A stretch of 29,448 bases of DNA from a virus: IMG/VR virus record IMGVR_UViG_3300030106_006094, positions 7,859 through 37,306 of that record, one strand, 5' to 3'. Shown piece by piece: positions 10,930 through 28,675 of the stretch. Under the pieces are notes generated by a model that saw only the letters and a program-made list of their open reading frames with translations, ran no database searches and had not been told where the DNA came from. Made by a program: the position numbers and the translations under genes. Each line of letters begins with the position of its first letter. Position 1 is the stretch's first letter.

Positions 10930-10957
10930 TTGACATGAGATTATATGGGAGTATTCT
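10930..10957 (+). promoter_or_regulatory. Promoter for replication operon
   Basis: TTGACA at 10930-10935, 16-base spacer, TATTCT at 10952-10957. Predicted RNA starts near 10964, just before a hairpin, and reads into the gene at 11014. Confidence 0.65.
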
Positions 10958-15932: not shown

Positions 15933-17826
15933 ATTGCAGTTCCCTTTATTTACACCGAAAACTGAATGGACTGCCCCGTTTGAGCTAAAAGACCTGACGG
16001 GTGCTAAAGAAATTGCGATTGACTTAGAAACAAGAGACCCTCATCTGAAAGAAAACGGCCCCGGCTGGCCGAAAAAAGACGGAGACGTTGTAGGAATCGC
16101 TGTTGCGACTGAAGGCTTTGAAGCTTACTACCCTATCGCCCATGCAGGAGGAGGAAACTTAGACAAAAACGTGGTGTTGAAGTGGCTTAATAAACAATTG
16201 TCTACAAATTGTCCAAAAATTATGCACAACGCGCCCTACGACTTGGGCTGGCTCAAAGCACTGGGCACCACGGTTAACGGTCCTATTATCGACACAATGA
16301 TCATGGCTGCACTCTTGGACGAGAACCGATTTTCTTATTCACTGAACGCCCTATCTTACGATTACTTGGGCGAGGCCAAGTCAGAGAAGCTACTGACCGA
16401 AGCGGCGGTGGACTTTGGGGTAGACCCCAAGGCCGAGCTATGGAAGTTGCCTAGCCAGTTTGTGGGTCCCTACGCCGAGCAAGATGCCCGGTTAGCCTTT
16501 GATTTATATAAGTTTTTTAGGGTTGAGATTAATAAAGAGAACTTGGAAACGGTCTTCGACCTAGAGACTCGATTGACTCCCTGCTTGATAGACATGACCT
16601 TTCGAGGCATTCGGGTGGACATGGAGAAATGCGAGCGCACTAAGCAAGAGTTATTAAAACGAGAGAAGATCCTGCTCAAACAGATCAAGGACATGGCCGG
16701 TCAGGACGTAGAAATATGGGCGGCAGCGTCCCTTGCCAAGGCATTTGACAAGCTCAAGATCAAGTACGCTAGGACAGGGACGGGACAGCCGTCTTTTACC
16801 AAGTCCTTTTTGTCCGAGCACCCGCATGAGTTTGCCAAACTTGTGGTACAGGCGCGTAACCTGAACAAGATACAGGGCACGTTTGTCACCTCGATTATGA
16901 AGTATGTGTCGAAAGAGGGCCGCATCCACGGACACATCAACCAGTTACGATCTGACGATGGCGGCACCGTCTCGGGCCGACTGTCGATGGCGAATCCTAA
17001 TTTGCAACAGATCCCGGCACGTGACCCAGAACTCGGTCCCTTGATCCGCAGTTTGTTTCTCCCGGAAGAAGACGAGCAATGGGCGGCTATCGATTTCAGT
17101 CAACAGGAGCCAAGGATTTTGACGCACTACGCCTCGGTGTTTGGTGAGTGGAAGGGTTCACCACTGGGCGGGGCCAAGGAATTTGTTGATGCCTACACCA
17201 ACGATCCAGAGACAGACTTTCACACAATGGTAGCCGAGATGGCTCAGATTCCACGCAAACAGGCCAAAACCATTAACCTGGGGATGATGTACGGCATGGG
17301 CGTTAAAAAGCTTTCTGAGCAACTGGATCTGGATATTGATGAGGCGAAGAGTCTGACCGAGCAATACCACTCCAGAGTGCCGTTTGTGAAGCAGCTTATG
17401 GCTGGCGTATCACGCAGCGTGGACAAGAAAGAGGATGGCGCAATCCGTTCACTGAAAGGACGCAAGTGCCGGTTTAATATGTACGAGCCGATAGGCTATG
17501 ACCTACAGAAAGCCATGCCTAAGAAGGAGGCAAAGGCGGCCTACGGGGACACCACGCCCCTGCGCCGTGCGTACACGTACAAGGCCCTTAATCGACTGAT
17601 ACAGGCTTCTGCAGCGGACATGACGAAACAAGCGATGGTGGACTTATATGAGGCGGGAGAACGACCTCTGCTTCAGGTCCACGATGAACTTGGTTGTAGT
17701 GTGCAGGACTTGGCCCACGCAAAACGGATCAAAGAGGTGATGGAGAACGCCATACCGCTCAGGGTTCCCAACAAATGTGACATTGACCTTGGACCTAGCT
17801 GGGGCGAGACAAAAGAGGTTAAATGA
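15916..17826 (+). CDS. polA: DNA polymerase I family (family A) with 3'-5' exonuclease
   Basis: 636 residues. Exonuclease: DLE (36-38), HNAPYD (104-109), YAEQD (186-190), so proofreading should be active. Polymerase: motif A AIDFSQQEPR with Asp393, motif B RKQAKTINLGMMYG with Arg447, Lys451, Leu455 and Tyr459, motif C QVHDE with Asp590. Leu455 aligns with E. coli Pol I Phe762 (T7 Tyr526). No 5'-nuclease domain is present, as in T7-like enzymes. ATG 15916 is preferred over 15910 because GGAG at 15905-15908 sits seven bases before it. Replicative polymerase of this phage. Confidence 0.97.
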   Translation: MDKETRLQFPLFTPKTEWTAPFELKDLTGAKEIAIDLETRDPHLKENGPGWPKKDGDVVGIAVATEGFEAYYPIAHAGGGNLDKNVVLKWLNKQLSTNCPKIMHNAPYDLGWLKALGTTVNGPIIDTMIMAALLDENRFSYSLNALSYDYLGEAKSEKLLTEAAVDFGVDPKAELWKLPSQFVGPYAEQDARLAFDLYKFFRVEINKENLETVFDLETRLTPCLIDMTFRGIRVDMEKCERTKQELLKREKILLKQIKDMAGQDVEIWAAASLAKAFDKLKIKYARTGTGQPSFTKSFLSEHPHEFAKLVVQARNLNKIQGTFVTSIMKYVSKEGRIHGHINQLRSDDGGTVSGRLSMANPNLQQIPARDPELGPLIRSLFLPEEDEQWAAIDFSQQEPRILTHYASVFGEWKGSPLGGAKEFVDAYTNDPETDFHTMVAEMAQIPRKQAKTINLGMMYGMGVKKLSEQLDLDIDEAKSLTEQYHSRVPFVKQLMAGVSRSVDKKEDGAIRSLKGRKCRFNMYEPIGYDLQKAMPKKEAKAAYGDTTPLRRAYTYKALNRLIQASAADMTKQAMVDLYEAGERPLLQVHDELGCSVQDLAHAKRIKEVMENAIPLRVPNKCDIDLGPSWGETKEVK

Positions 17827-17827
17827 C

Positions 17828-17856
17828 TTGCGATAATTCGCATAGGGTCTTATACT
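17828..17856 (+). promoter_or_regulatory. Promoter with TGCGA inverted repeat, upstream of regulator
   Basis: TTGCGA (17828-17833), 17-base spacer, TATACT (17851-17856). The -35 overlaps a perfect inverted repeat, TGCGA-TAAT-TCGCA (17829-17842). The predicted start is 17863, the A of the ATG, so the message would be leaderless. Confidence 0.72.
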
Positions 17857-17862
17857 TTACGC

Positions 17863-18057
17863 ATGGACACAGAAAAGTGGAAATCAGTTTTGGTCCCGGT
17901 GCCAGTGTACCGAGAGATCAAAGAAATTGCGCAGATGGAAGATCGTTCGATCAGCGGACAGCTACGCAAAATATTCAAAGAATGGAAGGAAGATCGGATT
18001 GCCGAAGCGGCAGAAATCGATCAAAATAGTTTAACTACTTTTTCGGCAGAAAAGTAG
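17863..18057 (+). CDS. Putative ribbon-helix-helix transcriptional regulator
   Basis: 64 residues with the layout of an Arc/CopG-like ribbon-helix-helix domain: a strand at 6-13 (WKSVLVPV), helix A at about 15-26, a turn (EDRS) and helix B at 29-44, then a short acidic tail. Such proteins bind operators as dimers through the strand. No ribosome site precedes the ATG, and the promoter upstream places +1 on or next to the ATG, as for leaderless lambda cI mRNA from PRM. The TGCGA inverted repeat in this promoter suggests autoregulation (inference). An overlapping frame starting at 17823 is judged spurious. Confidence 0.75.
   Translation: MDTEKWKSVLVPVPVYREIKEIAQMEDRSISGQLRKIFKEWKEDRIAEAAEIDQNSLTTFSAEK
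18035..18057 (+). promoter_or_regulatory. 8-bp hairpin over the regulator stop codon
   Basis: CTACTTTT (18035-18042) and AAAAGTAG (18050-18057) pair perfectly around a seven-base loop; the 3' arm contains the TAG stop. It begins the stem-loop series that fills the following gene-free stretch. Confidence 0.65.
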
Positions 18058-18275
18058 AGGCAGGGGTCTACTTCGACCCAGTTGGCCCGTGTCCCGTCCG
18101 GGTTGCCGAAGACGGGATAATTTGTTAGTTTTAGGGGTAGAAGAAGTCCCCTAGCTTCTTTAGAAGAGTAGCCAAGGCTCTTCGTCTCAAGACAAACCTG
18201 AGTCTTAACACCGCTCGGGCATTCCTTAGCCGGGCCTTAGCTTTGCCGAAGTTAAGGCCCGGTCCCTTTTTTTAC
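18058..18275 (+). ncRNA. Candidate structured RNA / 3' UTR with serial stem-loops
   Basis: No gene fits this stretch on either strand. It can form successive stems: 18064-18068/18075-18079 (GGGTC/GACCC), 18092-18098/18111-18117 (TCCCGTC/GACGGGA), 18132-18137/18148-18153 (TAGGGG/CCCCTA), 18163-18168/18178-18183 (GAAGAG/CTCTTC, alternative to a small stem at 18155-18166), 18189-18193/18202-18206, and the terminator. Every stem was found by eye; no folding was run. It would be co-transcribed with the regulator, either as a structured 3' UTR or as a processed small RNA. It matches no RNA family I recognise. Confidence 0.5.
18230..18275 (+). terminator. Strong intrinsic terminator of replication/regulator transcripts
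   Basis: A 14-bp stem (18230-18243 with 18249-18262, one G-T wobble) holding CCGGGCCTTA/TAAGGCCCGG, loop TGCCG, followed by TCCCTTTTTTT. It is correctly oriented to end plus-strand transcription coming from the polymerase and regulator genes. Confidence 0.92.
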
Positions 18276-18290
18276 TTTTAAATGATATGG

Positions 18291-18320
18291 TTGGTCTGAC
18301 CAAAGGGTGGGCTCACCCTT
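18291..18320. repeat. Two adjacent inverted repeats between convergent units
   Basis: TTGGTC-T-GACCAA (18291-18303) is directly followed by AAGGGTG-GGCT-CACCCTT (18303-18320). They sit between the plus-strand terminator and the end of the minus-strand operon; the second could help end minus-strand RNA although no U tract follows it on that strand. Confidence 0.55.
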
Positions 18321-18356
18321 CGGAGCGAGGCTGGCCCACTCGTGGTCAAAACGGGC

Positions 18357-18686
18357 TTAATTGTTATAATGAATTTTCCAGGTTTGAAGCTCTTTAAGTT
18401 TTTCTACATATTTCACGGATTTTTCGGGCATCCCACAGTTATCAAAACCTTCCACATCCAACATCTTCATTAATAAACTTTTTACTTCGGGAACAATTCC
18501 TTCATATTCTTTTTTCAAATACTCCAAATCAGATTCCCCGGTCAACAAATCAATTAAATCGCCTATCGCGCCAGTAGCCATGACCCATTCGTTTTCGGTC
18601 AAATGGGCCTCATTTTCTATATCGCCGCCAGCCATAACCGTCATATACGTGTCGTATTGCTGGTCGGTTTTCTTATGCCATTTCAT
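18357..18686 (-). CDS. Hypothetical protein, last gene of minus operon
   Basis: 109 residues with an excellent ribosome site (AAGGAG, six bases from the ATG at 18686). Acidic, helical, soluble; no recognised motif. It is separated by 27 bases from the preceding small gene and is the promoter-distal end of the twelve-gene operon. Function unknown. Confidence 0.8.
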   Translation of the reverse strand: MKWHKKTDQQYDTYMTVMAGGDIENEAHLTENEWVMATGAIGDLIDLLTGESDLEYLKKEYEGIVPEVKSLLMKMLDVEGFDNCGMPEKSVKYVEKLKELQTWKIHYNN

Positions 18687-18713
18687 TTTTTACTCCTTTT
18701 TGTTTTTACCATC

Positions 18714-18845
18714 TCAGTCCGTCGCCAATTCAACGTAGACCTTGGTCCAATACGTTCTGGCCCAATCGCTTATGTTCGGGTTCTCAAGTATATTTCTAAC
18801 CGCCAGTAGCTGAGACACCATTCTCCATTCGTCTTTTCTCATCAT
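18714..18845 (-). CDS. Small hypothetical protein, 43 aa
   Basis: MMRKDEWRMVSQLLAVRNIL... 43 residues ending in VELATD. GGAG lies five bases before the ATG, and the ATG overlaps the upstream gene's stop (ATGA), strong evidence that it is translated. Trp-rich, helical, no recognised domain. Confidence 0.7.
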   Translation of the reverse strand: MMRKDEWRMVSQLLAVRNILENPNISDWARTYWTKVYVELATD

Positions 18846-19012
18846 TTTCTCTCCAATTCACAAATTTCTGCTGTTGGAAAATCCTCATCTGTTTTACCTT
18901 CCAACATCTTTTCTGTCAAAAAGTTGTTTGCTTCTTTTTTAGATGCAAAAGGACCACGGACCTTGGAGCGTCCATGCTTCTTCGCATTATGTAAAACAAT
19001 TACCCAGGTCAC
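18842..19012 (-). CDS. Small hypothetical protein, 56 aa
   Basis: Starts with GTG overlapping the stop of the 372-residue gene upstream (GTGA) and ends overlapping the next ATG, so it lies in a continuous chain of coupled genes. The sequence begins MTWVIVLHNAKKHGRSKVRG, has a strand-loop-helix look with a basic N-terminal half and an acidic C-terminal half. No recognised family. Confidence 0.7.
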   Translation of the reverse strand: MTWVIVLHNAKKHGRSKVRGPFASKKEANNFLTEKMLEGKTDEDFPTAEICELERK

Positions 19013-20127
19013 GCCTTATCCTTTTCAACAACGTAATCCTTGGTTATCACTCCCAAACTGGGATCGCCGCGTTTATGCTCTTTAATGTACACGCTTTTAA
19101 GAATGTATCCGTGCTCGTCCTTATAATGACGCCAGTGTCCCGCTACGTCGTGTTGACGCACTCCAGCAAACTCCGTGCGCTTTGGCTCTTTTGGCATAAT
19201 TACACGGCCCTTGGTCTTAGGCAGCGTCAGCTTTACGCGCACGTGCGAGTCATGGGGGGTTGTTTCTTTGTTTAACCGTTTGCCTTGTACTCCAAGAACC
19301 TTTGGCTCTTCGACAAACCAGTCATAATTCATCAAAGACAGCATGGCTATCAATCGCGCATATTTGTTTTGATTGATCCGACCCTTCATTACTCCAAAAT
19401 CACTTCTTACATTTTTTGGAGTGTCATACACGTAATCGTTCAAACCCAAGGACCATCTTTGAAAAAGGCCCAATAAGTCGTTGCTGGCCGGGGCTTCCTC
19501 ATCTCCCAAAAACATCAATGGAAAAAAACCCGGATGGCGACGGTTTATTATGTCAGCCTCTATGTATTGTCCGCTCATACTCCAAATGCAGGTTTTGACA
19601 CTTATAGGGTACAGAGCTACTGCGGTTTTTGCAGGGAAAAGCGTGGTTGTTTCGTCTCGCGTTCCGTACACCTCTTCGTAATAGTGTTCTATTACATACA
19701 CATCTCCACGCTCACAACGTCTTCTTCCCACAATTGCATTATCCTCATTCACTAACGCAACTTCGGGAGATTCTCGAACATGAAAACCAACCAAGCCAAA
19801 CCCCGGATACAAGTGTCCCAGATCAAATTCGATCCACTGATTGAAGTGACGAGGGCGGGCATTCAACATAGCTTTGTAAAGCTGATGCTGATTACCTTTC
19901 TCGACCTGCGGCTCAAGATACTCCAAGATCTCGTTGCTGATCTCGTAGGTCACACTGCTTTGAATCCGGTTAGTTCTTTCTCTTAATGTTTTTTTTACAT
20001 GGACTTTCCACCCTTTAGGATGTTCAAAGTTTTCTAAACCACCCAAGCGTATAAACGGCTTCTGGATCGCGTGGATAACTTCCTGTTTAAGCTGACCCAG
20101 TTCCAGTTTTTCTCCTTCGTGGCTCAT
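19009..20127 (-). CDS. Conserved phage protein with basic C-terminal motif
   Basis: 372 residues from an ATG at 20127 that overlaps the upstream TGA (ATGA); a TTG at 20139 is less likely. A central part (about 85-215) contains HLYPGFGLVGFHV and YPISVKTCIWSM. The C-terminal 45 residues carry the pattern VRQHDVAGHWRHY ... IKEHKRGDPSLGVITKDY, which I recognise as recurring at the end of many uncharacterised marine phage proteins. No catalytic residues can be assigned. It is the largest gene of the minus operon. Confidence 0.85.
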   Translation of the reverse strand: MSHEGEKLELGQLKQEVIHAIQKPFIRLGGLENFEHPKGWKVHVKKTLRERTNRIQSSVTYEISNEILEYLEPQVEKGNQHQLYKAMLNARPRHFNQWIEFDLGHLYPGFGLVGFHVRESPEVALVNEDNAIVGRRRCERGDVYVIEHYYEEVYGTRDETTTLFPAKTAVALYPISVKTCIWSMSGQYIEADIINRRHPGFFPLMFLGDEEAPASNDLLGLFQRWSLGLNDYVYDTPKNVRSDFGVMKGRINQNKYARLIAMLSLMNYDWFVEEPKVLGVQGKRLNKETTPHDSHVRVKLTLPKTKGRVIMPKEPKRTEFAGVRQHDVAGHWRHYKDEHGYILKSVYIKEHKRGDPSLGVITKDYVVEKDKA

Positions 20128-20639
20128 TCTTCGGTCCAATACATCTCGTTGATTGATGCGTCGATGTGGACAATTGGCTCGTCAGACCTGTTGTAAAACT
20201 GTCTTAAACCACAAACCAATGGGTTCAAGATTGCGGCCTTCTCCTCAAATTCCATCGATTGATAAACGTCGTAATCGAAAGAGATCGGTATGCGCGTTAG
20301 CAAAAACTTCTCTTCGCTATTGTGTCGCTCGACATAAACATCCACCCCCATGTCCCTGCGTTTATGTACATACTGCATCGAGGGATCACAAACCTGGAAG
20401 ATAGGGCCTTTTGTTTCCTGTGCGTCGAGTTGCTGCTCGCGCTCAAAAAGCTTGTTTCTAAGGTTCTCCGTTTCCTGATACAAACGCCGATGCGCATCTA
20501 TCCGAAACGAGTCGTTTTTAGCTGCTTTAGAATTTGCTTCTTCTATTTTAGAGTTCAACTTCTTGACCTTGTTTTCAAGTCGCTTGACTTTTTTGGTCAA
20601 CTCTTCGTTTTGCTTCTCGATTTCATTTTTTAAAACCAT
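20124..20639 (-). CDS. Coiled-coil hypothetical protein
   Basis: 171 residues. Residues 1-72 form a long, heavily charged coiled coil (Lys/Glu/Leu/Asn heptads); residues 75-171 are a globular, acidic domain ending MYWTEE. AGGAG lies eight bases before the ATG. Ends in a 4-base overlap with the 372-residue gene, which suggests the two proteins work together; oligomerisation through the coil is likely. Function unknown. Confidence 0.82.
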   Translation of the reverse strand: MVLKNEIEKQNEELTKKVKRLENKVKKLNSKIEEANSKAAKNDSFRIDAHRRLYQETENLRNKLFEREQQLDAQETKGPIFQVCDPSMQYVHKRRDMGVDVYVERHNSEEKFLLTRIPISFDYDVYQSMEFEEKAAILNPLVCGLRQFYNRSDEPIVHIDASINEMYWTEE

Positions 20640-20640
20640 G

Positions 20641-20865
20641 CTAGTTCTCCTGTTTAAGTTGGTGGTTTGGGCGGCGTTTTGCCGACATTGAAATTACGTG
20701 CTGCGAGTAGTCAACGCCCGGCGGGAGATGTTTTTGGATATCTCCCATTGCTATGTCCCGAAGGTCCAAATGGTTTTGCCATTTAAAACCAAAACTGTCT
20801 CGCGCCTCGTAGACTATCGCGATGTCATATTTCGCTACTTCCATTTTCGTTGTTTCCCTTTTCAT
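20641..20865 (-). CDS. Hypothetical protein, 74 aa
   Basis: Contains YDIAIVYEARDSFGFKWQNH and a basic tail (SAKRRPNHQLKQEN). Two starts are possible: ATG 20865 (AAGGA immediately adjacent, too close) or ATG 20844 (67 residues, AGGG eleven bases upstream); neither ribosome site is ideal, so coupling with the upstream gene, which it overlaps, may drive translation. One base separates its stop from the next ATG. Function unknown. Confidence 0.62.
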   Translation of the reverse strand: MKRETTKMEVAKYDIAIVYEARDSFGFKWQNHLDLRDIAMGDIQKHLPPGVDYSQHVISMSAKRRPNHQLKQEN

Positions 20866-20995
20866 TCCTTAGCACAGCGTTTAACCGTTCACGGTCCTCG
20901 GTGCTGATGTGTTTTTTAATGTTGAGGATCGACATCCCTAAAGCGTCAATCCCGTATTTCGCTTGAAACTCTTCGCAAAGCTCAACGAGCGTCAT
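20825..20995 (-). CDS. Small hypothetical protein, 56 aa
   Basis: MTLVELCEEFQAKYGIDALG..., 56 residues ending in NGSSEI. The ATG overlaps the upstream TGA (ATGA) and it fills what would otherwise be a gap in the operon. Helical, with an unstructured Asn/Ser tail that lies in the overlap with the next gene. No recognised family. Confidence 0.65.
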   Translation of the reverse strand: MTLVELCEEFQAKYGIDALGMSILNIKKHISTEDRERLNAVLRNEKGNNENGSSEI

Positions 20996-21276
20996 TTTTC
21001 CAAAGGCCCGATGATCATGTCCGCGATCTTGCCTCCAAACTCCGCGTCCTGCATGGCCTTCAACGCCATCAGTCCCGCTGCTGCGTTAGATAACTCCGGA
21101 AACGATCTATCAAACGCCTCGGTATCTTCTTCCCCATCGTCATACTCCACCTCAATGTGGAACGCGAACGAAGTTGGGTTGATTCCCATGTCGTTTAAAA
21201 TATCCCCGATTAAGTCGGTTAAGTATTCCGTGTCTTTGACCTCTAATTGATCGTCGCCTAGCATTATGGTTTTCAT
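20992..21276 (-). CDS. Hypothetical acidic protein, 94 aa
   Basis: GGAGG lies seven bases before the ATG, which overlaps the upstream TAA (TAATG). Acidic alpha/beta sequence with HIEVEYDDGEEDTEAF in the middle. DNA mimicry is conceivable from the charge but there is no specific evidence. Function unknown. Confidence 0.78.
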   Translation of the reverse strand: MKTIMLGDDQLEVKDTEYLTDLIGDILNDMGINPTSFAFHIEVEYDDGEEDTEAFDRSFPELSNAAAGLMALKAMQDAEFGGKIADMIIGPLEK

Positions 21277-21467
21277 TACGCAGCCTCCGATTCATACGTT
21301 TCAAAACAGTTGACCCATTGGGACAATTCTTTGTCCGTCATGTTCAAAAGTTCTTCCAATCGTTTGCGAATTGTTTTCGCCAACACCTCGTGCGGGATCT
21401 CATCCGGGTCTTCGAAAGTACTATCAACGTAAAAATTTGTGTCATAAATATGAGTAAATGCTTCCAT
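21276..21467 (-). CDS. Hypothetical protein, 63 aa
   Basis: Small acidic helical protein (MEAFTHIYDTNFYVDS... QWVNCFETYESEAA). Start and stop both overlap neighbours by one base in TAATG junctions. No recognised domain. Confidence 0.72.
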   Translation of the reverse strand: MEAFTHIYDTNFYVDSTFEDPDEIPHEVLAKTIRKRLEELLNMTDKELSQWVNCFETYESEAA

Positions 21468-21895
21468 TACACCGCCTCATAATCGATATCGACCCACTGT
21501 AAAGAAGTGACGTTGATCTCGTCGGTAGTTAGGTGGGCATACTCCGGGTTGCGGGTCACATTGGCACACAACATGACATTACCTGCCGCATCGTGCTTGA
21601 AAGTAAACGCTACCGTATCACCCTCAGAAGCTTGCTCACGTAAGACAGGAGCGGGGATATTGTAACGCTTGTCCTTGCGTCCGTTCTTCCCGGTCACAAC
21701 ATAAAACTTTATTGTCGTTTCAGTTCCGTCCGTGAAGTGCAGCGGCATTTCTTTTTTACTGCCATTAGTCATGGTGTCGAAATCGACGCCGAGCAACCGC
21801 GCCAAGCGGACCAGTTCTTTAAAACAATCCGGGTTACCTTTTTCGATCATGGTTTTGGTCAACGTCTTGCTGACCGCTGGTATTAATAGTTCCAT
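21467..21895 (-). CDS. Hypothetical protein, possible DNA-binding domain
   Basis: 142 residues. N-terminal helices (KTLTKTMIEKGNPDCFKELVRLARLLGVDFDTM) are followed by a beta-rich half (TIKFYVVTGKNGRKDKRYNIP, DTVAFTFKHDAAGNVMLCANV). The all-helix then beta layout with basic patches is compatible with a nucleic-acid-binding protein, but no family is recognised. Coupled by TAATG overlaps at both ends. Confidence 0.75.
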   Translation of the reverse strand: MELLIPAVSKTLTKTMIEKGNPDCFKELVRLARLLGVDFDTMTNGSKKEMPLHFTDGTETTIKFYVVTGKNGRKDKRYNIPAPVLREQASEGDTVAFTFKHDAAGNVMLCANVTRNPEYAHLTTDEINVTSLQWVDIDYEAV

Positions 21896-22092
21896 TAGTC
21901 TTCTCCGTTTAGTATGTTCAATGATAAATCTGCACTTTCGGCAAGACCGTCAACCATTTGCCATCCAGCCCTTATGGCTTCCATGTCTTCTGCCTTTATG
22001 CCCGCCAACACTAAACGTAATGCAGCGGCTTTTGTGGCGGTGTCCGTGACCGCATCTCTCAACTCTTTGAGTTGTTTGTCCATTGATTTCAT
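21895..22092 (-). CDS. Hypothetical helical protein, 65 aa
   Basis: Ala-rich, two-helix protein (MKSMDKQLKELRDAVTDTAT...). AAGGAAG precedes the ATG, which overlaps the stop of the first operon gene. Likely oligomerises through amphipathic helices. Function unknown. Confidence 0.72.
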   Translation of the reverse strand: MKSMDKQLKELRDAVTDTATKAAALRLVLAGIKAEDMEAIRAGWQMVDGLAESADLSLNILNGED

Positions 22093-22226
22093 TTATCTTC
22101 CTTTTGTTGTAGCTCATCGAGCTTGTTGTTGATGTCTTGGAGAGTGGACTGGATGTCTCGAACCACGGACCACGCTTCTTGGACTTCTTGTTCTGACAGC
22201 GTGATTTTGATCTCGATCTTTTCCAT
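22089..22226 (-). CDS. Small coiled-coil protein, first gene of minus operon
   Basis: 45 residues (MEKIEIKITLSEQEVQEAWS... LDELQQKEDK), with GGAG seven bases before the ATG and an ATGA overlap with the next gene. A short strand is followed by one long amphipathic helix. As the first gene of a twelve-gene operon it may carry a regulatory role, but that is only inferred from position. Confidence 0.7.
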   Translation of the reverse strand: MEKIEIKITLSEQEVQEAWSVVRDIQSTLQDINNKLDELQQKEDK

Positions 22227-22324
22227 TCGTTTCTCCAAGTCGGTTTCTGATAATAGGGGTATTTGTTTTGATATGCAACACCTCCTATATGAAAGTTGTT
22301 TATTACTTTTAGTTATAAGTTTAT

Positions 22325-22352
22325 TTTATATTGGTCTTGATAGGTATGCGAA
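22325..22352 (-). promoter_or_regulatory. Promoter of the minus-strand operon
   Basis: On the minus strand TTCGCA (22352-22347), 16-base spacer, TATAAA (22330-22325). Its -35 lies inside the spacer of the plus-strand promoter, so the two cannot be occupied together. Predicted leader of about 90 bases containing an unused AGGAGGTG ribosome-like site near 22280. Confidence 0.55.
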
Positions 22353-22365
22353 AATATGGTAAAAT
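22337..22365 (+). promoter_or_regulatory. Promoter of the rightward small-gene unit
   Basis: TTGATA (22337-22342), 17-base spacer, TAAAAT (22360-22365), each 5 of 6 to consensus. A TGCGA pentamer (22347-22351), also found in the regulator promoter, lies in the spacer. Confidence 0.72.
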
Positions 22366-22370
22366 ATAGG

Positions 22371-22435
22371 AGGGTCATAAAACCTTTGTCGAAACTGACC
22401 CTTTCGATTGTTCTTTAACCGGCCGCTGCTGCGGC
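22371..22435 (+). promoter_or_regulatory. Leader with two hairpins
   Basis: AGGGTCA (22371-22377) pairs perfectly with TGACCCT (22396-22402); GCCGC (22422-22426) pairs with GCGGC (22431-22435) around TGCT. Both sit in the roughly 90-base untranslated leader of the gene at 22466. Role unknown. Confidence 0.5.
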
Positions 22436-22465
22436 TACAATTTAAACAACTAAACGGAGGTGCTT

Positions 22466-22888
22466 ATGAAAGTAAGCGATGAAGCTTGGTGTCTTTATGA
22501 AAAGACAAACGTATTTCTCATGGAAAGATCGATACCGATTCGGTTTCGAGACTGCCCAAGCAAAGAACCAAAGATCGATTTGGCTCAAGCCCGGAAACTG
22601 GCGCGACGTTGTTTTAGAAAATTTTCTAAAAGGCCGCTCAGTTTCTACGTTAACAGAATCGAAGCGATCTCAGGATCGACCCACACTTGGACCAACAACA
22701 AGAAAGGCAATGGAAAAACCTTGCTTGTCAATGTCCACAAAGATTGGGGCGAGTTCATTCACGACCTGTCTCACTTGATTCAGGCCAAGAATCAATCTCG
22801 ATACCGGAGGGGCAAAGCTTGGCATTGTGCGGAACACGCGGCTTTGGAATTCAGGATCGCAAAAACGGTCTTGGAGGATTGTCCATGA
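22466..22888 (+). CDS. Putative metal-binding protein, HDxSH/HxxEH motifs
   Basis: 140 residues. The C-terminal half has His99 and His103 (HDLSH) followed by His120, Glu123 and His124 (HCAEH) on what look like two helices, an arrangement suggestive of a zinc site and distantly reminiscent of small metalloproteases, though the canonical HExxH order is absent. The N-terminal half is basic. Start at ATG 22466, five bases after GGAGG, preferred over GTG 22460. First gene of the rightward unit. Family not recognised. Confidence 0.75.
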   Translation: MKVSDEAWCLYEKTNVFLMERSIPIRFRDCPSKEPKIDLAQARKLARRCFRKFSKRPLSFYVNRIEAISGSTHTWTNNKKGNGKTLLVNVHKDWGEFIHDLSHLIQAKNQSRYRRGKAWHCAEHAALEFRIAKTVLEDCP

Positions 22889-23112
22889 AAATTCCAAGCA
22901 ACCTGACCCAAGCTTGGCTCGATAAAAAGGGCTTCAAGCTGGTAGAGATCTATCGCAACGGTTACCGCCTAGCGATTCTCAGATCTGTCGGTAGAAAGTG
23001 GGCACACCTAAGTGTGGCCGCAACTGGGGACAACTTCAAAGTACCAGTTGACCAGTTGATGTACCGGCCCGTTGTTCGCAAACGTGGACAATGGACTGTG
23101 GACTACAACTAA
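22885..23112 (+). CDS. Hypothetical protein, 75 aa
   Basis: ATG at 22885 overlaps the preceding stop (ATGA) with GGAGG seven bases upstream; a longer frame upstream is a shadow of the preceding gene. Basic, beta-rich sequence (MKIPSNLTQAWLDKKGFKL ... RKRGQWTVDYN) resembling a small nucleic-acid-binding barrel in composition. No recognised family. Confidence 0.75.
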   Translation: MKIPSNLTQAWLDKKGFKLVEIYRNGYRLAILRSVGRKWAHLSVAATGDNFKVPVDQLMYRPVVRKRGQWTVDYN

Positions 23113-23116
23113 TAAA

Positions 23117-23132
23117 GGGGGCCTCGGCCCCC
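23117..23132 (+). promoter_or_regulatory. GGGGGC-CTCG-GCCCCC hairpin
   Basis: Perfect 6-bp GC stem with a CTCG tetraloop between two genes. No U tract follows, so it is more likely an mRNA stabiliser or partial attenuator than a full terminator. Confidence 0.55.
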
Positions 23133-23162
23133 AACTCCTAATCAACTAAATCGAGGTAAAAA

Positions 23163-23393
23163 ATGAAAGTAAGAATTCAAGAAACCATAGAGCTTCGCAA
23201 ACACGAGGTTCAAGTTTTAAAAAAAATGGCGGAAGAAAACGGCTACGTTTCTTGGCGTGACTTTGTTAGCTGGAGAATTTGCTCACTGGGCTACGGTGAT
23301 TTAAACGCCGAAATTTCTGAATGGCTAGAACATGAAGAGTGGCAAAACATGACCGAAGAAGAGCGAGAAAAAAATGAGGTTGCTCCGGTTTAA
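23163..23393 (+). CDS. Small protein, possible RHH-type DNA-binding
   Basis: 76 residues behind a CAACTAAATCGAGG leader with GAGG seven bases from the ATG. The first 45 residues could fold as strand-helix-helix (MKVRIQETIEL, then HEVQVLKKMAEENG, then SWRDFVSWRICSLG), as in ribbon-helix-helix proteins, followed by an acidic tail. This assignment is tentative. Followed directly by a strong terminator. Confidence 0.68.
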   Translation: MKVRIQETIELRKHEVQVLKKMAEENGYVSWRDFVSWRICSLGYGDLNAEISEWLEHEEWQNMTEEEREKNEVAPV

Positions 23394-23400
23394 AAATAAG

Positions 23401-23423
23401 AAAGGGGCTTCGGCCCCTTTTTT
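23401..23423 (+). terminator. UUCG-loop intrinsic terminator
   Basis: AAAGGGGC, TTCG, GCCCCTTTTTT: an ideal tetraloop-capped stem followed by a T run. Ends the unit 22466-23393. Confidence 0.95.
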
Positions 23424-23437
23424 GTTAATTCGCCTTT

Positions 23438-23665
23438 CTATATAGTACTTTTTCATAAAATTAATTTTTTTAAAAAAATAATTTCAAAAATGCCGGTACT
23501 GGTGGGACTAATGGGATTGCCCAGTAAACACGCGGCTTTCAGCCGTACCGGCACGGTCCCACTGGTGTTTAACAACGGGACAGTTTTCGTTAAATTGCAT
23601 TTCCACATAGGAGTTTTCAGGAAATCTTTTTTTTATTTTTTTATTTTTACTAAAAAGTACTATAT
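23438..23665. other. Candidate replication origin or packaging site
   Basis: Gene-free. A perfect 14-bp inverted repeat (ATATAGTACTTTTT at 23440-23453 and its complement at 23652-23665) brackets about 200 bp. Inside are an A/T-only tract (about 23456-23482), then a GC-rich core, then poly-T tracts (23627-23650). The core has interleaved inverted repeats: 23491-23499 with 23545-23553, 23502-23508 with 23556-23562, and a small hairpin at 23534-23544. It ends 33 bases before the terminase small subunit, whose protein commonly binds DNA near its own gene; an origin is the alternative reading. Function is inferred. Confidence 0.5.
23491..23562. repeat. Interleaved inverted repeats, pseudoknot-like order
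   Basis: TGCCGGTAC (23491-23499) and GTACCGGCA (23545-23553) are complementary, as are GTGGGAC (23502-23508) and GTCCCAC (23556-23562). The order is 1-2-1'-2', not nested. ACTGGTG also occurs as a direct repeat at 23498-23504 and 23561-23567. Confidence 0.8.
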
Positions 23666-23698
23666 GGTAAGCGTTTTTAATTAGGTAAGATTTGTCTT

Positions 23699-24247
23699 AT
23701 GGCAGAACAGGTAATTAAGAAAGAAACCAGAGGCCGACCTCGGGTTAGTGAGGCGACCCGACTGACCGGGAAACAGGTCAAGTTTGTTGAACTGGTTGCA
23801 ACCCGAGAAGGTCAGGACACTTTGCAGAACCTAGCAATCGAAGCTGGGTTTAGTCCGAAGGGTGCGAACACCCGAGCATACGAAATGCTCAACCCCAGGA
23901 TTTCTCCACATATATGCAAGGCGTTGCGTGAACGCAGAGAACAGCTTGCTGAAAAGTATGAAGTGACCTATGCCAGACACATTCGTGATCTTCAGAAGAT
24001 CCGTGATGATGCTCTTGCCAACGGAGCTTACTCGGCGGCAGTGCAAGCCGAAAAGGCGAGAGGGTTAGCGCAGGGTAATATCTATGTGAACAAGAGCGAG
24101 ATCCGTCATGGGTCGATTGATTCCATGAGCAAGGAACAAGTCAAAGAAGCACTAAACGAACTCAAGCGTCAGCTTGGGGAAAAGGTGGTTGTTGATGTCG
24201 AGCCAGAGCGAGTCGAGCTTCTGGAAGACGCTCAAGTGGCACATTGA
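23699..24247 (+). CDS. terS: Terminase small subunit
   Basis: 182 residues. After a basic leader (KKETRGRPRVSEATR) comes the phage small-terminase helix-turn-helix pattern, LTGKQVKFVELVA ... LAIEAGFSPKGANTRAYEML (about 22-65), then an oligomerisation helix region and an acidic tail. It recognises viral DNA and recruits the large subunit for packaging. No good ribosome site precedes the ATG. Unusually, about 5 kb of small genes separate it from the large subunit. It directly follows the repeat-rich candidate origin/packaging region. Confidence 0.85.
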   Translation: MAEQVIKKETRGRPRVSEATRLTGKQVKFVELVATREGQDTLQNLAIEAGFSPKGANTRAYEMLNPRISPHICKALRERREQLAEKYEVTYARHIRDLQKIRDDALANGAYSAAVQAEKARGLAQGNIYVNKSEIRHGSIDSMSKEQVKEALNELKRQLGEKVVVDVEPERVELLEDAQVAH

Positions 24248-24602
24248 AAAATCAGGGGCCGATGTTGTATTAACTCGGATCGAGAACTCCCAGACTCCCG
24301 GTATCCCCGATCTTCTTTTTTGTGACCGCAAGCGCAACCTGCATTTGATTGAGTTGAAGGTAGCCACGGGTTGGAAACCTAAACTCAGTCCTTTTCAAAT
24401 TAGTTTTGCTGTTCGGCACCAAGCTGCAAGGGCGTGGGTGTTGATCCAGAAATGGCAAAAGGATGAGAATGAAATCTACCTGTACCGTGCCGATCAGGTT
24501 ATGAAACTGATGGAGAAAGGCATGAAAGGAGTTAAACCGAAAGAAGTGTTTACGTTGCCGGTTGGTCTGGAACGGTTTTTGATAGCCCTTGAGGATTTCT
24601 GA
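24195..24602 (+). CDS. VRR-NUC domain nuclease
   Basis: 135 residues from ATG 24195 (53 bases inside the terminase gene, AAAGGTGG upstream). PD-(D/E)xK nuclease core of the VRR-NUC type: Asp39 in GIPDLLF, Glu53 and Lys55 in IELK, Gln68 in SPFQ, followed by the VRR-like basic region around VRHQAARAWVLI. Phage members are thought to resolve branched DNA; here it may trim replication or recombination intermediates before packaging. Overlap with the terminase gene suggests coordinated expression. Confidence 0.9.
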   Translation: MSSQSESSFWKTLKWHIEKSGADVVLTRIENSQTPGIPDLLFCDRKRNLHLIELKVATGWKPKLSPFQISFAVRHQAARAWVLIQKWQKDENEIYLYRADQVMKLMEKGMKGVKPKEVFTLPVGLERFLIALEDF

Positions 24603-24643
24603 TGAGTCATATAGGATGAATCCCATGAGTAGTTTTAATGTAC

Positions 24644-24668
24644 TGGAAGTTAAAAAATGACTTCCATG
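24644..24668. repeat. Hairpin and inverted copy of a 20-bp repeat
   Basis: GGAAGT (24644-24649) and ACTTCC (24660-24665) form a stem. On the minus strand 24668-24649 reads CATGGAAGTCATTTTTTAAC, identical over 20 bases to 28856-28875 on the plus strand. Confidence 0.85.
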
Positions 24669-24672
24669 AAAA

Positions 24673-24879
24673 ATGTATATCCTTTATAGGAAACATTTAG
24701 AAAAGCAGCAGAGGCTAGAACAGTTACGACAGGATCGTTTGGCGCGTATTGCCAAGGAAAAAAGATTAAATGAGATTAGAAAACAAAAACTAGCTCGTTT
24801 AGAAAACATGGTAAGGAAAAAGCATTTAGAGGCGGGCATGACTCTTGAAGAAATTAATAACGGAGTCTTGTATAGGTAA
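24673..24879 (+). CDS. Small very basic coiled-coil protein
   Basis: 68 residues, dominated by Arg/Lys/Glu/Leu heptads (LEQLRQDRLARIAKEKRL). The pI must be very high, consistent with nucleic-acid binding or scaffolding. There is no ribosome site before the ATG, which is the main reason for doubt; the frame is otherwise clean and fills the space up to the next promoter. Confidence 0.5.
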   Translation: MYILYRKHLEKQQRLEQLRQDRLARIAKEKRLNEIRKQKLARLENMVRKKHLEAGMTLEEINNGVLYR

Positions 24880-24882
24880 GGG

Positions 24883-24910
24883 TTGACACTTCAATAGTTG
24901 TGTGTAGGAT
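24883..24910 (+). promoter_or_regulatory. Promoter with inverted repeat around -10
   Basis: Perfect TTGACA (24883-24888), 16-base spacer, TAGGAT (24905-24910). GTTGTGTG (24897-24904) and CATACAAC (24917-24924) form an imperfect inverted repeat (7 of 8) around the -10, a plausible operator. Confidence 0.65.
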
Positions 24911-24942
24911 ATCTCCCATACAACAACTAAATAGGAAGTGTT

Positions 24943-25485
24943 ATGTCACTAGAAAAAATCAGCGAGCTTATTAAAGTAGCCCGATCCGAATCTACCGAGT
25001 ACGATAACTTTGTGAAGGACGATCCGATTTCTGCCTTTCTTAGCTTGGAAGCTGCTAACAAAATCACACCTCTGGATCTTGATCGTATGATCGATAATCC
25101 CTCGGCGGCTCTTCATGATCTATTTGGGATTGGCCGACACCTAAACCCAGAAACCAAAAAGTTTGATAATTGTTTTCATCCCCGCTTTGCTAATTTTTTA
25201 ACGGTCAGGGTTGAAGTCGAGAAAAAATTCATAGCGACGGCTAGTGCTACTATTGATATTGATCCGGACGATGTTTGGAAGACTCTCGGATATTCTTTAG
25301 AAGAGGTGATCGAACACGACATGGATGTGATGCACTACGTCGATGATTATTTGCAAGAAGTGGATGAGGAAAACCACCCTTCCGGTTTGGATCTTCAAGA
25401 CCTGAAGGATCAACTGGAAGAAAATTTCGAGTATGAAATGGAGGACTTTCGTTGGGGCAATGTTGATTGGAAGGTGAAGAGGTAA
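24943..25485 (+). CDS. Hypothetical acidic protein, 180 aa
   Basis: AGGAAG lies four bases from the ATG, behind a CAACTAAA leader. Strongly acidic, particularly the C-terminal 60 residues (YVDDYLQEVDEEN, EENFEYEMEDFRWG). No recognised domain. First gene of a four-gene accessory unit. Charge pattern would suit a DNA-mimic or host-protein inhibitor, but that is speculation. Confidence 0.78.
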   Translation: MSLEKISELIKVARSESTEYDNFVKDDPISAFLSLEAANKITPLDLDRMIDNPSAALHDLFGIGRHLNPETKKFDNCFHPRFANFLTVRVEVEKKFIATASATIDIDPDDVWKTLGYSLEEVIEHDMDVMHYVDDYLQEVDEENHPSGLDLQDLKDQLEENFEYEMEDFRWGNVDWKVKR

Positions 25486-25487
25486 TT

Positions 25488-25691
25488 ATGACGCAGTACA
25501 ACGAAAACAATTCAATATCGATTGTCTGGAGCATTGAAGACGTTAAAGGGATACGGCCCGATTTAAACGATGACCAGTGCATGAAGGTTTTACGCATGGT
25601 CGAAGATAAACACGATGCAACCTTTGGCGTTAATTGGGACATGATTGAAGATTGGGCCGATCATTTGTATCCGTGGGAGGAAAGTGAATGA
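25488..25691 (+). CDS. Small conserved phage protein, 67 aa
   Basis: Start at ATG 25488 with AGAGG upstream. The pattern ISIVWSIEDVKGIRPDLND ... CMKVLRMVEDKHDATFGVNWDMIEDWADHLYP is one I recognise in short uncharacterised proteins of phages and bacteria. Acidic, helical. Overlaps the next ATG (ATGA). Confidence 0.8.
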   Translation: MTQYNENNSISIVWSIEDVKGIRPDLNDDQCMKVLRMVEDKHDATFGVNWDMIEDWADHLYPWEESE

Positions 25692-25852
25692 AAGATAAAG
25701 CAATTTGGGGCGTAACTATTGACGGGATCAAGGTAGACACGCCACTCAGAACTTATAAAGAAGCGAGGGAGCAAGCGCACTGGATCGCAAACGGTGCGCA
25801 CTCGTGGTATGGAATTGAGGTTGTTAATTTTACTGATCAGTCGGAGGGGTAA
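25688..25852 (+). CDS. Small hypothetical protein, 54 aa
   Basis: MKDKAIWGVTIDGIKVDTPL..., 54 residues with a strand-strand-helix-strand look (KEAREQAHWIANG in the helix). The ATG overlaps the preceding stop. Composition resembles small domains that regulate or bind nucleic acid, but no family is recognised. Confidence 0.68.
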   Translation: MKDKAIWGVTIDGIKVDTPLRTYKEAREQAHWIANGAHSWYGIEVVNFTDQSEG

Positions 25853-25858
25853 GCAACG

Positions 25859-26053
25859 ATGTGCAGCAACAAAGTGCTAATTGACGTGCCGAAAGGTTTG
25901 GATTATAAGACTGTTGAGTACCCTTGTGGATCGACGGGCATTTATGGACAAATGATTTTGTGCGACAAATGCGAACCGCAACGTAAAAACCGCCAAGCCT
26001 TAGCCGATGCCGACAACGCTTGGATGAAGTCTGCCGGGTGGGGAGAAATTTAA
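25859..26053 (+). CDS. Small putative zinc-ribbon protein
   Basis: 64 residues; GGAGG lies eleven bases before the ATG. Cysteines in PCGSTG (residues 22-27) and LCDKCEP (34-40) could chelate one zinc ion, as in short treble-clef or ribbon folds. The pattern PCGST ... CDKC is familiar from small phage proteins of unknown role. End of the four-gene unit; no terminator follows. Confidence 0.72.
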   Translation: MCSNKVLIDVPKGLDYKTVEYPCGSTGIYGQMILCDKCEPQRKNRQALADADNAWMKSAGWGEI

Positions 26054-26061
26054 ATCCGGGC

Positions 26062-26090
26062 TTGTTTTGGTGGGGATCTATGTATAGGAT
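26062..26090 (+). promoter_or_regulatory. Promoter with 9-bp operator-like inverted repeat
   Basis: TTGTTT (26062-26067), 17-base spacer, TAGGAT (26085-26090). GGGATCTAT (26073-26081) and ATAGATCCC (26089-26097) are a perfect inverted repeat overlapping the -10, which looks like a repressor site. The same TAGGATA...TCCCA context occurs at the 24883 promoter. Confidence 0.68.
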
Positions 26091-26120
26091 AGATCCCACA
26101 ACTAAACCGGAGACTTAAAA

Positions 26121-26834
26121 ATGACAATTGAACAAACTGTTTTTGATATGCTTACGACTTCGACGGGCACTCATATGCTCGACAGTGGCGGCGCGAATGG
26201 TCGTCACTGGCAACGTAATCAAGAGCGATCCATAGAAGATTTTTTATCTGAACCCGAGGCGGTATTGAGTACCGAGTATGATTACCCGGAAGTTACCGTT
26301 TCACTATTTCACAAGCTGACCAGCGGCGTAATCTATCTGGATGAGTTCTCGAAAGAATTTAATTCTTTGCCCTGCGATAATTGGGACGGGGATTATTACG
26401 GGACTAGCGTCGAGCAATGCGAGTGGCTAGTAAACCGGGGTTTCGATCAGGCGAACAAAGAAAAAAAGTACTATAAGGACGGTTGGAATACCTATAACTG
26501 GGAGAATAATTTTTCTCAGGTATTGCAGGGGCATGATTTGGTAAACCATGAGGACGAAGATTACGTTTTAATTCAGATCCACCAAGGTGCCGACGTGCGT
26601 GGAGGGTATACCGACGCGAAGTTGTTTCGCTTAAATGATTATGTGGAACCGTGGCGGGTGGTAGATGATCGCGCTTACTTTTCGATTGACGGTGTTAACG
26701 GTGCGACGATGTTTATTGATTGCACGGGTTCCGAATTGGAAAGTGAGGGCACTCGTTTAGATGAGGAAGATATACGCCTGATAAAAGAAAAAACGGGCGG
26801 CAATTTGATAGGCGAGATCGACAAAGATTTTTAG
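26121..26834 (+). CDS. Conserved hypothetical phage protein
   Basis: 237 residues. The N-terminal signature STGTHMLDSGGANGRHWQRN recurs in phage and plasmid proteins of unknown role, as I recall. The middle contains QCEWLVNRGF, the C-terminus is acidic. No catalytic or membrane features. The leader is CAACTAAACCGGAG; the gene has its own promoter and a strong terminator, so it is a single-gene transcription unit. Confidence 0.82.
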   Translation: MTIEQTVFDMLTTSTGTHMLDSGGANGRHWQRNQERSIEDFLSEPEAVLSTEYDYPEVTVSLFHKLTSGVIYLDEFSKEFNSLPCDNWDGDYYGTSVEQCEWLVNRGFDQANKEKKYYKDGWNTYNWENNFSQVLQGHDLVNHEDEDYVLIQIHQGADVRGGYTDAKLFRLNDYVEPWRVVDDRAYFSIDGVNGATMFIDCTGSELESEGTRLDEEDIRLIKEKTGGNLIGEIDKDF

Positions 26835-26864
26835 AACCTGGCTAAATAAAAACCTCCGTTTATG

Positions 26865-26889
26865 CCCCGCTATATGCGGGGTTTTTTTT
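26865..26889 (+). terminator. Intrinsic terminator (CCCCGC stem)
   Basis: CCCCGC-TATAT-GCGGGG followed by eight T. Just upstream, CCTCCGTTTA (26853-26862) is complementary to the TAAACGGAGG leader found before several genes. Confidence 0.93.
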
Positions 26890-26901
26890 GTCGTCTAGAT
26901 A

Positions 26902-26934
26902 TGCGATGATGCTTATCCAATCAACTAAACGGAG
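26902..26934 (+). promoter_or_regulatory. Promoter/leader module with TGCGA box
   Basis: TGCGAT (26902-26907), four bases later a TTAT core in GCTTATCC, then CAACTAAACGGAG (26922-26934). Same arrangement as at 27424 and 28233, but the TATACT -10 is degenerate here. Confidence 0.5.
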
Positions 26935-26940
26935 ACGAAA

Positions 26941-27129
26941 TTGGATTATTATATTTTGCCGAACGGCGTTAACTTACACCTAACACGATCCGACGATACT
27001 ATTTGTTTCTCAGGATCGGCCACGGGTAACCACTGGCTATCTGCAACGCAAACAACCGACGCCCGATTAAGAGAACATTGGGACGGCTACAAAAGCAACG
27101 CGCTAAAAAACTACTGGGAGAATGTATAA
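26941..27129 (+). CDS. Small hypothetical protein, TTG start
   Basis: 62 residues (MDYYILPNGVNLHLTRSDDT ...). No ATG is available; TTG at 26941 follows GGAG by six bases. Beta-rich N-terminus, helical C-terminus. Stops directly before the next ATG. Confidence 0.7.
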   Translation: MDYYILPNGVNLHLTRSDDTICFSGSATGNHWLSATQTTDARLREHWDGYKSNALKNYWENV

Positions 27130-27375
27130 ATGAGTTATGTAATTATGGCGATAGATGAAACGGGCGGCGAGTTTAACGCCGGGAACCAATCGTTTAACAC
27201 TGAGTCGGACGCCTATGAAGCTTTGTCCGAGGTGAAAGAAGGGTATCCGGAGGCGCGTCGGATCTGGGTCGAATTGTTACGAGATAAAGACTATTTTTTA
27301 TCGCAGCGATCCGATCCCGATTATTACGATGATATCGACGATTATGACGCCGATCTTATGTACCGCGAGTATTAA
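27130..27375 (+). CDS. Small acidic hypothetical protein
   Basis: 81 residues, very acidic, ending in a run of Asp/Tyr (DYYDDIDDYDADLMYREY). Starts on the base after the preceding stop. The N-terminal strand-helix-strand (SYVIMAIDETGGEFNAG) suggests a small alpha/beta fold; the Asp-rich tail would mimic DNA phosphate charge. No family recognised. Confidence 0.72.
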   Translation: MSYVIMAIDETGGEFNAGNQSFNTESDAYEALSEVKEGYPEARRIWVELLRDKDYFLSQRSDPDYYDDIDDYDADLMYREY

Positions 27376-27395
27376 CCAGCTACGATCTGAAACGA

Positions 27396-27420
27396 CCCCG
27401 CCTAGTGCGGGGTTTTTTTT
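27396..27420 (+). terminator. Intrinsic terminator (cassette copy 1)
   Basis: CCCCGC-CTAGT-GCGGGG followed by eight T; same stem as the terminators at 26865, 28205 and 28695. Confidence 0.93.
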
Positions 27421-27423
27421 GGC

Positions 27424-27466
27424 TGCGATTAGTCTTATACTGTCAGTCCAATTCAACTAAACGGAG
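27424..27466 (+). promoter_or_regulatory. Promoter/leader module (copy 1)
   Basis: TGCGA (27424-27428), -10 TATACT (27436-27441) within a 19-base block (27433-27451) repeated identically at 28242-28260, then CAACTAAACGGAG (27454-27466). No -35 consensus is present: the position is occupied by the terminator T run. Confidence 0.65.
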
Positions 27467-27472
27467 AATAAA

Positions 27473-27661
27473 TTGGAAGAAACAAAAAAATATATAGAAG
27501 TGCCGCCGCCAAGCTGGGAGACGTGCGCGAGGATCTGGGCCGCCGCGGTAGAACACGGAACCGAAAATCTAACGAGCCGCGCAGCCGCTCGCGAGGAACT
27601 GATCCGAATGGGCGCGTTATTAGACAAACTTGAAAAACAACTAAACGGAGAAACAAACTAA
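27473..27661 (+). CDS. Small hypothetical helical protein, TTG start
   Basis: 62 residues (MEETKKYIEVPPPSWETCAR ...). TTG 27473 follows GGAG by six bases, with the same leader as the TTG-started gene at 26941. Its 3' end contains another CAACTAAACGGAG (27638-27650), which provides the ribosome site for the next gene. Pattern resembles small phage proteins of roughly 60 residues with PSWE and RMGALLDKL helices; function unknown. Confidence 0.72.
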   Translation: MEETKKYIEVPPPSWETCARIWAAAVEHGTENLTSRAAAREELIRMGALLDKLEKQLNGETN

Positions 27662-28182
27662 TGAAATATGATTTTGTAATTGACTTAGGCAAACCCGAAC
27701 GAATGAACCTCCGGGCGGCTAAACTTGTTCTTGAATGGGAATACAACCCCACGCAAAACCAAAGCTATCCGGGCGTTTCCGCCGAACAACATTCGGGCGT
27801 TGAATGGTATGTTCAAGCTTGCGGATTAATCCCAGACTTCTATGCGCGAGCTATTGACGAATGGGAAACCGAAAACGGTGCGGGCTGTAACACTGACGAT
27901 CCCCGCGGGGAGAAACCCACTTTGTCCGAGATCGCCGAGCGGATGGATACGATTTATGGGTTTGGCGGTTTCCGCTCTTATTTGTGGCAGGGTAAGGTTT
28001 TGGATGATGGCACGTTTGAAGCTTTGCCTTCCGATGATGACGAACAAGACCCGCCGTTAATTCCTTATGTTCATTTAGTGCATCCGTCGGAGAGGCATTT
28101 GGAATGTTTCATTTATCCATACGGGGTTGTTACCCTCCGGGATATCAAAACCGGCGAAACCAAAACGGCGCGATTCGATTAG
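27661..28182 (+). CDS. Hypothetical protein, 173 aa
   Basis: ATG overlaps the preceding TAA (TAATG) with GGAG eleven bases upstream. Acidic, with WYVQACGLIPDFYARAID in the first half and a Pro-rich segment DDDEQDPPLIPYVHLVHPSE in the second, followed by a beta-rich end (CFIYPYGVVTLRDIKTGE). No recognised family. Last gene before a cassette terminator. Confidence 0.78.
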   Translation: MKYDFVIDLGKPERMNLRAAKLVLEWEYNPTQNQSYPGVSAEQHSGVEWYVQACGLIPDFYARAIDEWETENGAGCNTDDPRGEKPTLSEIAERMDTIYGFGGFRSYLWQGKVLDDGTFEALPSDDDEQDPPLIPYVHLVHPSERHLECFIYPYGVVTLRDIKTGETKTARFD

Positions 28183-28192
28183 ATCCCGCCGC

Positions 28193-28230
28193 CGATCCAA
28201 ACGACCCCGCCGTGCGCGGGGTTTTTTTTG
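28193..28230 (+). repeat. 38-bp terminator repeat, copy A
   Basis: Identical over 38 bases to 28683-28720. Contains the whole terminator stem and T run. Confidence 0.92.
28205..28229 (+). terminator. Intrinsic terminator (cassette copy 2)
   Basis: CCCCGC-CGTGC-GCGGGG followed by eight T. Ends the two-gene unit 27473-28182. Confidence 0.94.
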
Positions 28231-28232
28231 TC

Positions 28233-28270
28233 TGCGATCTTTCTTATACTGTCAGTCCAACTAAATGGAG
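28233..28270 (+). promoter_or_regulatory. Promoter/leader module (copy 2)
   Basis: TGCGA (28233-28237), TATACT (28245-28250) and CAACTAAATGGAG (28258-28270), with the same 12-base offset between TGCGA and TATACT as in the 27424 copy. Confidence 0.65.
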
Positions 28271-28276
28271 AAACAA

Positions 28277-28675
28277 ATGCTAATAGATAGCTTTACAAAA
28301 AAAGACTACACGCAAGACGCGGACAAGTTAGTCGCAATCAATCCCCGGTGGCAGAAACAAGTTAAGAAATGGGGCAAGGCAATGCGTTTGGTCGATTACT
28401 GGGTTGATCTCGGTTATGTAGCCGACGGTTTCGATGACAAGAAACATTACCAAGAATGTCTCGACAACGAAGAAAAGTATTGGAATCAAGTGAAAGAGAT
28501 CGAGTTTTCCTTACCGAAACGCGAGATCGAGAACGCTGCGCGACAGTTAATCGACATTGTGAACGCTCAGTTTGTGAACGATCTGGTAGACGACGCCTAC
28601 CAACGGGGTAAGTCTGACGCGAGATTGGAAGCGGAAAAATTCATCGATGACCATTTGATTGTCGTTAGGGGTTAA
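28277..28675 (+). CDS. Hypothetical protein, 132 aa
   Basis: ATG 28277 lies six bases after GGAG; an in-frame ATG at 28265 overlaps the leader and is unlikely. Helical, charged protein (KQVKKWGKAMRLVDYWVDLG ... EIENAARQLIDIVNAQF). No recognised domain. Single-gene transcription unit flanked by cassette elements. Confidence 0.78.
   Translation: MLIDSFTKKDYTQDADKLVAINPRWQKQVKKWGKAMRLVDYWVDLGYVADGFDDKKHYQECLDNEEKYWNQVKEIEFSLPKREIENAARQLIDIVNAQFVNDLVDDAYQRGKSDARLEAEKFIDDHLIVVRG

Follow-up and report, generated by a model that had tools for sequence, protein, structure and literature searches.

In the Arc and CopG systems, RNA polymerase is blocked by ribbon-helix-helix (RHH) dimers that cover the space between the -35 and -10 elements of a promoter. 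The locus described here resembles these RHH autorepressors (Arc/Mnt of P22 and CopG of plasmids) in having a small RHH protein, with a fold that matches Arc and CopG, and a predicted operator laid over a core promoter; autoregulation would be a further likeness. It differs from them in that the sequence similarity of its protein is too low for a close family call, the predicted operators consist of 10-bp direct units in tandem, the predicted targets include several promoters across the genome, and no lysogeny module was found in the phage.

The stoperators of mycobacteriophages are asymmetric sites spread across short intergenic gaps and served by one phage repressor (PMC9283540). The sites predicted here are likewise asymmetric, lie in short intergenic gaps and would answer to one phage repressor. 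They differ from stoperators in the RHH fold of that protein, in lying within promoters or after terminators, and in belonging to phages in which no integrase was found.

The third comparison is with boxA/nut and rRNA leader antitermination sites, for which the boxA consensus is GYTCTTTAANA (PMC5725501). Here too a boxA-like sequence with flanking hairpins lies just downstream of a promoter, but it is seen only in the clade of the phage under study, the consensus is incomplete in that phage and in contigs L003 and L136, and no N-like protein was identified.

Phage sequences and features

The window, that is, the whole stretch of 29,448 nucleotides that was analysed, is G000:C1:7859-37306, from an uncultured marine phage; the IMG/VR virus record to which it belongs is 37.3 kb long and classed as linear. 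Its genes include those for a DNA polymerase, a primase, helicases, the two terminase subunits and structural proteins. Among phage records, the nearest polymerases (about 54%) come from phage 023Pt_psg01, Pelagibacter phage HTVC023P and Phage DSL-LC04. A Megablast search with 20 kb against phage records gave no near DNA match, and an Rfam scan gave a chance mir-128 match only. Ten IMG/VR contigs with the intergenic region (L002, L003, L004, L089, L129, L134, L136, L139, L140 and L141) were reached through the first rightward gene, one leftward operon gene and the leader pattern.

At positions 22325-22365 the initial annotation had drawn two divergent, overlapping promoters as a possible genetic switch. 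We consider it probable, from sequence and its conservation, that the interval is instead a rightward promoter overlaid by predicted tandem sites for an autoregulated RHH repressor, encoded at 17863, that would shut off several phage promoters. The features concerned are:

10930..10957, + strand: replication-operon promoter TTGACA-N16-TATTCT, with a predicted operator in the spacer (10934-10957, - strand); the operon runs from 11014 onward
17828..17856, + strand: the regulator's own promoter, TTGCGA-N17-TATACT, with the predicted operator CATAGGGTCTTATA at 17841-17854
17863..18057, + strand: RHH regulator, 64 aa, assigned by family profile and predicted structure
22089..22226, - strand: first gene of the leftward operon, about 45 aa, called from sequence and found at the matching place in relatives
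22250..22278, - strand: conserved leftward promoter TTGCAT-N17-TATTAT, called from relatives
22281..22290, + strand: CCTCCTATAT, which may be an operator half-site and lies upstream of the leftward -35; the match in the window is weak (4.1 bits)
22325..22352, - strand: leftward promoter of the initial annotation, TTCGCA-N16-TATAAA, not conserved
22337..22365, + strand: rightward sigma70-type promoter TTGATA-N17-TAAAAT with extended -10 TGG, called from conservation in relatives
22345..22370, - strand: predicted tandem operator of the RHH repressor, in 10-bp phase over spacer, -10 and start, called with the matrix described below; on the + strand it reads TATGCGAAAA TATGGTAAAA TATAGG
22466..22888, + strand: first gene of the rightward operon in the window genome; the gene adjoining the leader varies among relatives

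The RHH regulator

The regulator was matched in 147 stretches of IMG/VR and in five MAG contigs, and no homolog was found among 50,697 phage records. Pfam RHH_5 matched 19 of 19 members of the regulator family (best E 1.5e-6); the window regulator itself gave E 0.015 against the RHH profile, below the curated cut-off. Its AlphaFold model (pLDDT 81) has the strand-helix-helix order of the fold, and the Foldseek matches listed were mostly RHH proteins (CdbA, Arc, CopG, MatP and PutA), none with an E-value below 0.2. From the family profile, the predicted fold and the structural matches taken together, the 17863 protein was assigned as an RHH protein. A PDB sequence search with the window regulator returned chance ribosomal matches only, and no description of it appears in the titles and abstracts listed by literature searches. 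In L176-L178 the homolog has 55 aa and ends at TAG, against 64 aa in the window, and its RHH part is intact.

Predicted operator motif and its placement

The own promoters of distant regulator homologs carry tandem 10-bp half-sites, YATAnnnTCY, and this motif was recovered by a motif search over 16 non-redundant upstream regions. A 14-base matrix was built from 15 sites in such distant own promoters, none of them from the clade of the window phage. Its three best places in the 29.4 kb were 22345-22358 (-), 17841-17854 (+) and 10934-10947 (-), all in promoter gaps; these are, in rank order, the spacer of the rightward promoter, the regulator's own promoter and the replication-operon promoter. 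The fourth-best place, 22355 (-), lies exactly 10 bp from 22345. The rightward promoter held rank 1 in all four contigs (window, L134, L136 and L139). The second-best place in L136 was the regulator's own promoter, and in L139 the leftward promoter carried another strong site. L003/L004 had a weaker site at the rightward promoter, and their own regulator promoter scored poorly.

As a control, the matrix columns were permuted with base composition kept (n = 3,000). The top three places were all intergenic for 0.3% of the permuted matrices, a site at both the own promoter and the rightward promoter was never obtained (0/3,000), and rank 1 at the rightward promoter in 4/4 contigs was obtained once (1/3,000), the contigs being related and not fully independent. 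The best score in the window, 13.2, is not extreme when set against the 95th percentile of shuffles, 14.5. As the score is only moderate by this measure, support for the operator comes from the ranking and from the relatives. Leave-clade-out scans gave further sites, many of them in a promoter-like context, and four MAG homologs outside the training set had similar motifs at their own promoters. A 14-base pattern scan for TCGATTGTTCTTTA returned mostly unrelated contigs.

Half-sites are repeated over the regulator's own promoter, as expected of an autorepressor of the Arc/CopG type. The pentamer TGCGA, which the initial annotation had noted in both the overlap and the regulator promoter, is indeed common to the two; the match is longer than the pentamer, and TGCGA is the inner part of the predicted tandem operator. 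In L139 both the rightward promoter and the contig's own regulator promoter contain the 12-nt sequence TGCGATAATATG. On the leftward side, CCTCCTATAT has a mirrored counterpart, ATATAGGAGG, in the region of the rightward start, and the leftward promoter of L139/L140 carries a strong predicted operator, CATAACGTCTTATA (14.8 bits).

The motif is AT-rich, coincides in part with -10 elements and is present at many phage promoters, as would a promoter signal or host-factor site common to these phages, with its association to the RHH gene incidental. This explanation is unlikely, since the motif accompanies the RHH gene in nearly all homologs, whatever the clade, stands in either orientation relative to the promoter, and has the tandem phasing typical of RHH sites.

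Promoters of the divergent interval

Both promoter-like patterns of the initial annotation were found where it had placed them. The rightward one (+ strand) consists of TTGATA at 22337-22342, N17 and TAAAAT at 22360-22365 (10/12), with an extended -10 TGG at 22357-22359. The leftward one (- strand) consists of TTCGCA at 22352-22347, N16 and TATAAA at 22330-22325 (9/12), and an alternative with N18 and TAAAAT fits too. In 2,000 dinucleotide shuffles of the intergenic region, an overlapping pair of equal strength occurred in 0.7%, a rightward match of at least 10/12 in 8%, and, taken by itself, a leftward match of 9/12 or better in 49%. The pair is thus unusual and its leftward half weak. From 12000 to 29448 the window holds 18 promoter-like matches against 21 expected from shuffles, which is no excess.

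Among the relatives, the rightward -10 is kept in 10/10 (4-6/6, with the extended TGn). The rightward -35 is kept in L134 and L140, matches at 4/6 in several others and is lost in the L003/L004/L089 group; in L136 the promoter, by reading, is TTGACC-N17-TAAAAT. The leftward -10 of the initial annotation is replaced by GATTTC, TATGGA or ATTTTT, or is absent (L136), with L129 as the exception, and that promoter is probably not used. A second leftward promoter, TTGCAT-N17-TANTAT, with a fitting short leader, is found in the window, L002, L129 (-35 TTGTAT), L134 (-10 TATGAT), L136 and L139-L141, and is replaced by TTGACA-N18-TATCTT in L003, L004 and L089. By reading, L131, L132, L133 and L135 have a leftward promoter of the TTGCAT type, and the whole rightward promoter segment is missing. 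This pattern of conservation points to 22250..22278 (-) as the promoter that the leftward operon is likely to use. The dyad TTATTACTTTTAGTTATAA at 22300-22318, between the two promoters, is perfect in L003/L004; it was considered as a separate operator and rejected, being kept in several relatives and absent from L129 and L136.

The initial annotation had proposed a comparison with related phage genomes, and this comparison upholds its rightward promoter but not its leftward -10. Since the former is conserved and the latter is not, it is not the overlap that is conserved. A control region between divergent gene blocks, as had been claimed, is supported, and its rightward promoter looks real. 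The leftward operon also stands, but about 11 genes were counted in place of twelve.

It is quite improbable that two face-to-face promoters sharing 22337-22352 compete for RNA polymerase as a bistable switch. Both patterns exist and such an overlap is rare in shuffles, but nearly all relatives have lost the leftward -10 and yet keep the operon, together with another leftward promoter about 60-85 bp further leftward, and the predicted operator in the spacer accounts for the conserved bases of the overlap. The analogy drawn with lysis/lysogeny control found no backing: neither the 37.3-kb record nor any of 11 related ones, all of which may be incomplete, had a match to PF00589 (tyrosine integrase), and no CI/Cro-type repressor was present in the selected proteins scanned with PHROGs/Pfam. 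Because no integrase was found, lysogeny control is not supported.

Proposed model of repression

In the proposed model the interval would be the core of a single rightward sigma70 promoter with an extended -10, and the tandem 10-bp half-sites in its spacer, -10 and start would be bound by the phage's own RHH protein, as we infer from the computed fold, the conservation, and the motif with its placement. Side-by-side RHH dimers would cover the promoter from -35 to -10 and so block RNA polymerase, giving repression as opposed to activation. The 17863 protein would also repress its own promoter and that of the replication operon, and the result would be a delayed shut-off of early and replication transcription in the lytic cycle. 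The leftward operon would start from the separate promoter at 22250-22278, where some relatives also have a predicted operator.

If correct, the model names the regulator, the probable binding code and the targets in a phage group that has no member of this RHH family among the 50,697 phage records, and the code would allow promoters to be annotated across many metagenomic phage contigs. A wider reading, and a rather improbable one, is that one RHH protein may serve as genome-wide regulator in a widespread group of uncultured phages from the sea whose examined records show no integrase, acting through tandem 10-bp sites placed at early promoters and within cassettes of terminator, site and gene; in one clade a boxA-like antitermination leader would follow the main rightward promoter.

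In L129, L131, L002 and L003, high-scoring sites occur in short gaps that follow an intrinsic terminator and precede the next ribosome-binding site; similar gaps of the window, at 26864, 27394 and 28203, contain weaker, related sequences. A stoperator-like action, in which the RHH protein bound in such gaps would block both initiation and elongation across the rightward operon, would suit the sites in those four contigs but is very unlikely, as a promoter located there would account for them just as well. Between 26864 and 28713, four strong and similar rightward intrinsic terminators lie between small genes of the rightward block; TGCGAT or TCTTATAC motifs follow three of the four, before the next gene.

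Leader and other features

Directly 3' of the rightward start lies a leader in which two hairpins flank the boxA-like GTTCTTTAAC. Its parts are:

22371..22402, + strand: leader hairpin 1 (AGGGTCA/TGACCCT); a change from G-C to U-A stays paired in L003/L004
22410..22420, + strand: boxA-like GTTCTTTAACC between the two hairpins; GTTCTTTAACA in L129, L134 and L139-L141
22421..22436, + strand: leader hairpin 2 (GGCCGC/GCGGCT), called from pairing across relatives

Over seven distinct leader sequences, 94.7% of cells were paired, against 29-54% in sliding controls, and three pairs were changed on both sides. The match to the boxA consensus is perfect in L129, L134 and L139-L141, with one mismatch in the window and two in L003 and L136. 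A covariance model found no copies of the leader outside the clade, and boxA-like matches were absent near the predicted operators of other RHH clades. As a hypothesis drawn from sequence and pairing, the leader may act in antitermination; if it is such a site, it would be a second layer of control in phages in which no integrase was found.

Two further non-coding features were observed. Positions 23394-23698 form an AT-rich region of about 300 nt with a large imperfect inverted repeat, directly before the small terminase gene and kept in relatives; a packaging site or an origin is possible. The leader of the replication operon (10958-11013) contains a 7-bp hairpin with a GAAA loop (AAGTGTCGAAAGACACTT).
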